A stretch of DNA of 64,000 nucleotides from Flavobacteriales bacterium (lineage in GTDB: Bacteria > Bacteroidota > Bacteroidia > CAIKAF01). Positions within the stretch are counted from its first letter, which is position 1, and each line of letters starts with the position of its first letter. The translations under genes and the position numbers were made by a program. The stretch spans positions 1,304,016 through 1,368,015 of the forward strand of contig JAGYKD010000001.1 of NCBI GenBank assembly GCA_018401695.1. The letters run 5' to 3'. The notes below the pieces were generated by a model that had not been told where the DNA came from, ran no database searches, and saw only the letters and a program-made list of their open reading frames with translations. This document shows positions 13,696-15,472 of this stretch, piece by piece.

Positions 13696-14343
13696 CTATT
13701 TGTGGAATCTATCCTTCTTCCAATTGGCAGGGTTATTTTTTATGTATTGCGTGATTCGAAGAAAGGCCGGTTCATTTCGAATGATGTGGTCGTGATACCG
13801 CGATTGCCATGCAAAATTGGAATGGATTTGTTGGGCAGATACCTTTACCCCAATTTTAAAACCACGAATTATAGATCCCAAATTTTTGGATTGGGGACCA
13901 AATAGGTTTTTTGGTTTTTGTGCATTTGTTTTGGTATTTGCGGCGGCGGTTGCCGACGCATTTGCGTTGGTTGTTGCCAACGCATTTGCGTTGGTTGTAG
14001 AGACGCAATGCATTGCGTCTCTACCGCGTTGCGCGCCCCGTTTCCTATTGAATTGATTTTTCCCAATCCCAATAATGGCATGAAAATGATTGGGCATTAC
14101 CACATATTCACCCATCCATAAATGCATATCGGGTCGCATTTCAAATGTTTTTAACCATTCATTTTGTGTGATTTGTCCAATTTCAGACAAATACATAACC
14201 CCTTTCGTGATTTCTCCAAACCAATGCGACCGGTTTTGGGTACAAATGGTAATAAAATACAGGGCATTCCACCCATAATCCCAAAATGGTGCTCGGTTTG
14301 AGGGAATGCGGTATTTGTTTTGGAAACGTTCCATGTGCATCAT
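13696..14343 (-). CDS. REP-associated tyrosine transposase (RAYT-like)
   Basis: This 215-residue protein belongs to the Y1/HUH transposase superfamily. The metal-binding HUH motif is MPNHFHAI (His86, His88). The probable catalytic tyrosine is Tyr183 in SRYHDHIIRNE, and FITICTQNR near residue 30 is also typical. It should nick and join single-stranded DNA at REP palindromes. Residues 104-142 are an atypical insert (GRDAMHCVST and a Thr/Asn/Ala-rich tract). The DNA of this insert consists of three palindromes (13953-13970, 13977-13994, 13997-14024) that keep the frame open. Start codon is uncertain (14343, 14340 or 14334). No flanking terminal repeats were found. Confidence 0.87.
   Translation of the reverse strand: MMHMERFQNKYRIPSNRAPFWDYGWNALYFITICTQNRSHWFGEITKGVMYLSEIGQITQNEWLKTFEMRPDMHLWMGEYVVMPNHFHAIIGIGKNQFNRKRGAQRGRDAMHCVSTTNANALATTNANASATAAANTKTNAQKPKNLFGPQSKNLGSIIRGFKIGVKVSAQQIHSNFAWQSRYHDHIIRNEPAFLRITQYIKNNPANWKKDRFHK
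13953..14024. repeat. Three palindromes inside the RAYT-like coding region
   Basis: CCGACGCATTTGCGTTGG and CCAACGCATTTGCGTTGG are tandem hairpins of about 18 bp. They are followed by a 28-bp perfect palindrome (13997-14024) with core AGACGCAATGCATTGCGTCT. The core shares layout with the tandem array unit at 968-1143, AGACG..ATGC.T..CGTCT. All three lie in frame in the insert of the transposase gene. Confidence 0.9.
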
Positions 14344-14867: not shown

Positions 14868-15164
14868 ATGATTTATGTAATAGAAAAAACAATAGAGTTT
14901 GATACGTAGTTACAAAAGCTAAAGGACAGGAATGCCAAGGCAAAAATCCTATTTCGCATACAGCGTATTCAAGCAACAGGAAATTTTGGTGATCACGTAT
15001 TTCTAAGAGATGGAGTTGGAGAGTTAAGGATTCATTTTGCCAAAGGCTATAGCGTTTATTACATGGTGAAAAAGGAACATAAAGTTGTGTTATTGTTTGG
15101 CGGAAGCAAGGCGACGCAAAAAAAAGACATGCTTAAAGCCATGAACCTAAAAAACAAAATTTAA
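14868..15164 (+). pseudogene. RelE/HigB-type toxin gene with early TAG stop
   Basis: Reading from ATG 14868 gives MIYVIEKTIEFDT, then TAG at 14907-14909, then an open frame to the TAA at 15162. The joined 98-codon product matches the addiction-module killer family: LQKLKDRNAKAKILFRIQR, GNFGDHVFLRDGVGELRIHF, YSVYYMVKKEHKVVLLFGG and SKATQKKDM. The stop takes the place where family members usually have Trp (FxxWL), so a single TGG-to-TAG change explains it. Apart from this stop the frame is intact, which suggests a recent loss. The antitoxin gene follows 20 bases later. Confidence 0.82.
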
Positions 15165-15184: not shown

Positions 15185-15472
15185 ATGAGCACGAGTCCTT
15201 TTAATATTGCCGATTACCTAAACAATCAGGAAATGATTGTGGCTTACTTAAATCAGGTTTTGGAGGAGGGGGATGAACAGGATTTGCTGGTCGCCATTGG
15301 ACATGTAGCCAAAGCCATTGGAATGACCCAAATTGCAGAGGAAACCGGAATGAGCAGGTCTAGCTTGTATAAAGCCTTGAGCGAGGAGACCAAACCAAGG
15401 TTCGAAACCATAATTAACGTGCTACGTGCTGTTGGAGGGGAAATTCAAATAGTACCCGCACAAAAATCATAA
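15185..15472 (+). CDS. Addiction-module antidote protein (HTH)
   Basis: The 95-residue protein belongs to the antidote family paired with HigB/RelE-like killers. It opens with FNIADYLNNQEMIVAYLNQVLEEGD. A helix-turn-helix follows at about residues 52-75, MTQIAEETGMSRSSLYKALS, then KPRFETIINVLRAVGGEIQI. It should bind the toxin and repress its own operon. Gene order is toxin then antitoxin, as in HigBA. With the toxin interrupted, this gene may persist as a free regulator. Confidence 0.87.
   Translation: MSTSPFNIADYLNNQEMIVAYLNQVLEEGDEQDLLVAIGHVAKAIGMTQIAEETGMSRSSLYKALSEETKPRFETIINVLRAVGGEIQIVPAQKS

Follow-up and report, generated by a model that had tools for sequence, protein, structure and literature searches.

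A RAYT gene of a Flavobacteriales bacterium with a double-foot GTAG REP in frame in its own coding sequence

The window, by which we mean the whole 64-kb stretch of DNA analysed here, contains a gene for a REP-associated tyrosine transposase (RAYT, also TnpAREP). Its open reading frame, reconfirmed as 215 codons, includes a palindrome-rich stretch between the two catalytic motifs. The features of the locus, together with two neighbouring frames, are collected in Table 1.

Table 1. Features of the RAYT locus (positions in the window)
Feature	Position	Strand	Remarks
RAYT/TnpAREP gene, 215 aa	13696..14343	-	HUH residues 86-88, WQ 179-180, conserved Tyr 200
Variable loop, residues 101-146	13906..14043	-	residues 109-142 have pLDDT < 50 in the model
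24-bp tandem repeat, including the second and third palindromes (18 bp each)	13936..13998	.	local only
Third palindrome	13953..13970		imperfect, one mismatched pair
Second palindrome	13977..13994		CCAACGCAAATGCGTTGG; perfect 8-bp arms
Double-foot GTAG REP, perfect 28-bp palindrome	13997..14024	.	encodes GRDAMHCVST, residues 107-116
Toxin-like frame	14868..15163		in-frame TAG at codon 14
Addiction-module antidote gene	15185..15472		intact; PF21716

The assignment to the RAYTs, proposed earlier from the letters of the sequence, agrees with several kinds of evidence. The residues H86, H88, W179, Q180 and Y200 are invariant in an alignment of 36 sequences, all of which match the NCBIfam REP_Tyr_transpos model (E <= 0.001). 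This model of REP-associated tyrosine transposases (NF047646) is the sole significant family match of the window protein (E 8e-15; 54.9 bits, with a curated cutoff of 80); the protein scores under the curated cutoff of Pfam Y1_Tnp too, in both cases presumably because the insert splits the profile match. A search of the PDB by sequence gave a spurious match only; the top structural match of the AlphaFold model in the PDB is 4ER8 (E 4.7e-6, TM 0.59 by target length), the E. coli TnpAREP with a bound REP hairpin. The window protein is 88% identical to its closest relative, L005: between the two, the core has a dN of 0.041 and a dS of 0.145 (dN/dS ~0.28). For the part of the loop that follows the REP, dN is 0.163 and dS 0.212 (dN/dS ~0.77); few changes underlie these dS values. 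The low ratio of the core indicates that the enzyme is under constraint. From its sequence and model, the gene is identified as encoding an HUH/Tyr REP-associated transposase, with REP cleavage itself being predicted; a literature search found no biochemistry for this enzyme or a close relative.

The most conspicuous element of the gene is a perfect 28-bp palindrome, GTAGAGACGCAATGCATTGCGTCTCTAC, which lies in frame and has the feet of a REP at both ends (GTAG...CTAC) around an ATGCAT core: this is what the earlier note had taken for the probable substrate of the enzyme. It is the longest palindrome of the window, the runner-up having 16 bp, and by simple arithmetic the chance expectation for one of this length is ~64000 x 4^-14 = 2e-4. 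Since H86/H88 constitute the HUH motif and Y200 is the conserved Tyr, 114 residues apart as counted from H86, the insert sits between the two motifs and leaves both intact, as had been noted. The AlphaFold model is confident apart from the N-terminus and the residues of low pLDDT in the loop; in it the loop is preceded by a strand (86-93), followed by a helix (155-172) and predicted to be disordered. At the DNA level the hairpin has a folding energy of -20.1 kcal/mol (z -4.7 for a 61-nt stretch). Three palindromes had been described here, and all are present, one of them imperfect; one is the REP, and the remaining two form part of a local tandem repeat of 24 bp. Further copies of this repeat were sought genome-wide and none was found; hence, its two palindromes are not REPs, and their being a second REP family was ruled out, as they are present in the window gene alone. 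Tandem amino-acid repeats (e.g. GIDAN, DADA, GGAVDGAV) likewise adjoin the loop REP in L013, L028, L037, L051 and L063.

A REP within a RAYT gene, which the earlier note regarded as exceptional, is already a published hallmark: genes of TnpAREP subclass 2.4 carry in-frame REPs in the region that separates HUH from Tyr (PMC6006769; Quentin et al., 2018). The window gene has every testable feature listed for the subclass: the NH[IFV]H, WQ and YIxNNP motifs (NHFH, WQ and YIKNNP in the window protein); a variable loop between beta3 and alphaC with a long HuH-Tyr distance, for which the published median is 88, compared with 114 in the window; the double-foot GT[AG]G...C[CT]AC REP in frame between HuH and Tyr; and a host range that includes Bacteroidetes and other phyla. 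No difference in kind was found, the window gene adding a tandem repeat of 24 bp next to its REP. The in-gene REP is thus real, widespread and well supported, and of a kind described in 2018 for this subclass. It is related to the GTAG REPs and REPtrons, in which a GTAG-tagged palindrome is tied to a RAYT and REPs can sit within genes, at times supplying TAG stop codons (Di Nocera et al., 2013; PMC3733652). Whereas a classical REP has a single, unpaired GTAG tail and such REPs are mostly intergenic, flanking the RAYT (PMC3733652), the window REP has feet at both ends and lies inside the RAYT. The Rickettsia palindromic elements (RPE, cited in PMC3733652) are similarly read in frame within coding genes; the sources consulted here associate no transposase with them, whereas in the window it is the transposase gene that hosts the insert.

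The genome possesses three RAYTs of the same kind, whose internal REPs all differ: the window gene with its ATGCAT core, a second at C1:426 kb of the AAAATATT type and a third at C12:592 kb with GTAGGGACGTTGCATGCAACGTCCCTAC. The host genome was searched for further intergenic copies of the exact 28-mer with its ATGCAT core, as the earlier note had proposed, and none was found, the sole copy being that within the window gene. Related elements with a AAAATATT core go with the second RAYT. The assembly has four exact foot-to-foot REPs, of which three are situated within these RAYT genes or at their ends. In the second RAYT (L073), a REP in the loop is accompanied by another at the gene end, and its stop codon appears to be the TAG supplied by a GTAG foot. 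Elsewhere in the same genome, outside the window, AGACGGAATGCCTTCCGTCT occurs seven times within 600 bp (C1:1377743-1378322), some copies being 36 bp apart.

A first set of 67 homologous loci was found partly with the peptide GRDAMHCV, which is part of the REP. In this set the loop often holds the same or a related palindrome, read in two frames (as GRDAMHCVST or VETQCIASL); several relatives are without the insert, and L022, L023, L033-L035, L046 and L047 have no intact internal REP. Because such a query is biased toward REP carriers, rates were taken only from a loop-free search, in which residues 1-94 alone served as the query against 296 genomes of the phylum; 129 loci were read, and the rates refer to the 100 genes with both halves recognised, their loop boundaries being set by HMM. 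Counting by gene rather than by base, which avoids the effect of a REP lengthening its own loop, a foot-tagged palindrome is present in the loop of 46 of the 100 genes, in the 500 bp upstream of 11 and in the 500 bp downstream of 12. The density of palindromes with at least 12 of 14 pairs in these genes falls from 5.9 per kb in the loop to 1.7 per kb in the 100 bp adjoining it upstream and 1.1 per kb in those downstream, and is 0.1 per kb in the remaining coding sequence and ~0.1 beyond 400-500 bp. Among the group-A genes, 47 of 87 have a loop palindrome at this threshold, where shuffled loops give 0.1. The alignment of homologues suggested earlier thus finds the insert both variable and palindrome-bearing. 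Across genomes, REPs are observed in 65 of 91 that are RAYT-positive as against 43 of 205 others (odds ratio 9.4, uncorrected for relatedness); in these 43, no RAYT reaches the threshold used.

Proteins of the NHMH...RNYYEHI type (among L120-L214), used as a negative control from a presumably different subclass, failed as such: 7 of 13 have loop palindromes too. Hence, in-gene REPs may extend beyond subclass 2.4, contrary to the published description. In L019, L021, L031, L038, L045, L049 and L063, a second in-frame REP insertion site is observed in addition to the post-HUH loop: the turn after FG[ED][IV], which corresponds to residues ~42-48 of the window protein.

The palindrome is conserved as DNA. 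When the left foot (GT[AG]G[AG]G[AG]C) is the only criterion for calling a site, which leaves complementarity unselected, 39 of 71 have a fully complementary 12-13-bp core (expected 0.1%) and 61 of 71 at least five of six pairs (expected < 1%). Among 42 distinct 28-mers, 9 of the 14 pairs vary on both sides and covariation is 0.615, compared with 0.206 after shuffling (reached by 0 of 500 shuffles) and at most 0.20 with slid partners; this value is somewhat favourable, because 5 of the 47 left-foot 28-mers, poorly paired ones among them, were dropped by hand, an omission from which the left-foot count is free. The sites use two reading frames, 56 as GTA GAG (frame 0) and 16 as.GT AGA (frame 1), and none the TAG-starting frame, which contains a stop. 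The earlier note had held that a peptide kept while its palindrome was destroyed would count against its reading; the opposite is seen, self-complementarity being kept while the peptide changes. This bears on the view that GRDAMHCVST is a repeat or linker motif of the protein, with the DNA palindrome incidental. The peptide does recur across phyla, but the same DNA is read in two frames, the unbiased loops contain 41 different foot-tagged palindromes, and the element is found outside genes too; two-frame use and covariation refute this view, and we give it next to no credence.

Several comparisons bear on insertion and turnover of the REP. In Tenacibaculum, the core protein of L018 shares 96% identity with that of L033/L035, and L018 has 36 extra bases with a REP, flanked by TACCAC on either side, which are absent in L033/L035: either insertion with duplication or deletion via the short repeat could account for the difference. 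L196 and L205 differ by a 60-base REP-bearing stretch, and in other pairs pieces of the REP are duplicated in multiples of three. Some relatives retain decayed internal REPs. Among sister pairs, both members have an internal REP in seven and only one member in another seven. At loci with both in-gene and flanking REPs, the cores are identical in 5 of 10, where 0.68 is expected (permutation p = 0.0003).

In the account that we consider likely, the window gene is a subclass 2.4 RAYT, and a double-foot GTAG...CTAC REP would have been inserted in frame into the disordered loop that links the HUH strand to the next helix. The disorder of the loop, and the fact that a REP can be read through in two of its three frames, would let such insertions survive. 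REP copies would then build up in and beside the gene, the simplest reason being that the enzyme acts close to the site at which it is encoded. They would turn over as copies are inserted or duplicated, decay, or give way to other palindromes. On this account the enzyme would move the REP and prefer nearby DNA, and carriage of the REP would be mostly tolerated rather than required. Against it count the lack of a dispersed copy of the exact REP type in the genome, which leaves present-day mobility conjectural, the scores of the window protein under both profile cutoffs, and the 43 REP-positive genomes in which no RAYT reaches the threshold. Nor is it obvious how pure tolerance would explain loop REPs being ~4x as frequent as those of each whole 500-bp flank.

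This enrichment leans slightly toward more than tolerance, and with it toward the idea that the internal REP is maintained as useful, either as a permanently linked substrate or as a hairpin in ssDNA or mRNA of the gene itself, by which the enzyme would limit its own expression. The transposase gene would then be its own REP carrier, with the linked substrate renewed palindrome-for-palindrome while the core of the enzyme is conserved, and perhaps with self-limitation too. The excess of the loop over both flanks (46 against 11 and 12 of 100 genes), the keeping of the palindrome while its sequence changes, the 28/28 identity of the REP between the window gene and L005 while the adjacent loop diverged, and the stable DNA hairpin speak in favour of this. 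However, frequent loss and decay lean the opposite way: many relatives are without an intact internal REP or have decayed ones, so that it is not essential, and the sister pairs divide evenly. On balance we think usefulness of this sort rather unlikely. Still more doubtful is that the palindromes are a general selfish repeat of the RPE kind, entering many genes and not moved by this transposase, even though in-frame palindromic inserts are known from unrelated genes (PMC3733652) and 43 genomes with REPs have no detected RAYT. Palindrome density is highest in the RAYT loop and drops to background within ~400 bp, cores match by locus, RAYT and REP co-occur across genomes, and in vitro the E. coli TnpAREP both recognises GTAG REPs and cleaves them (PMC8266576).

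To our knowledge, the following are new: the excess of REPs in the loop over those in the flanks when counted by gene, the covariation of the palindrome arms, the use of two reading frames, the filled/empty pair and the match of cores within a locus; the supplementary figures of the 2018 study may overlap with them. How REPs spread and why REP-RAYT linkage persists are in general not yet settled. Where, as in this subclass, the substrate is housed in the gene of its own enzyme, more often than elsewhere and at a defined position, the subclass offers natural filled/empty pairs, and its dozens of matched enzyme-REP combinations are usable for tests of REP recognition, mobility and self-regulation.

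In the window, the toxin-like frame interrupted by an in-frame TAG and the intact antidote gene directly downstream of it (Table 1) are probably a decayed toxin-antitoxin pair, the toxin being called from its position and look.
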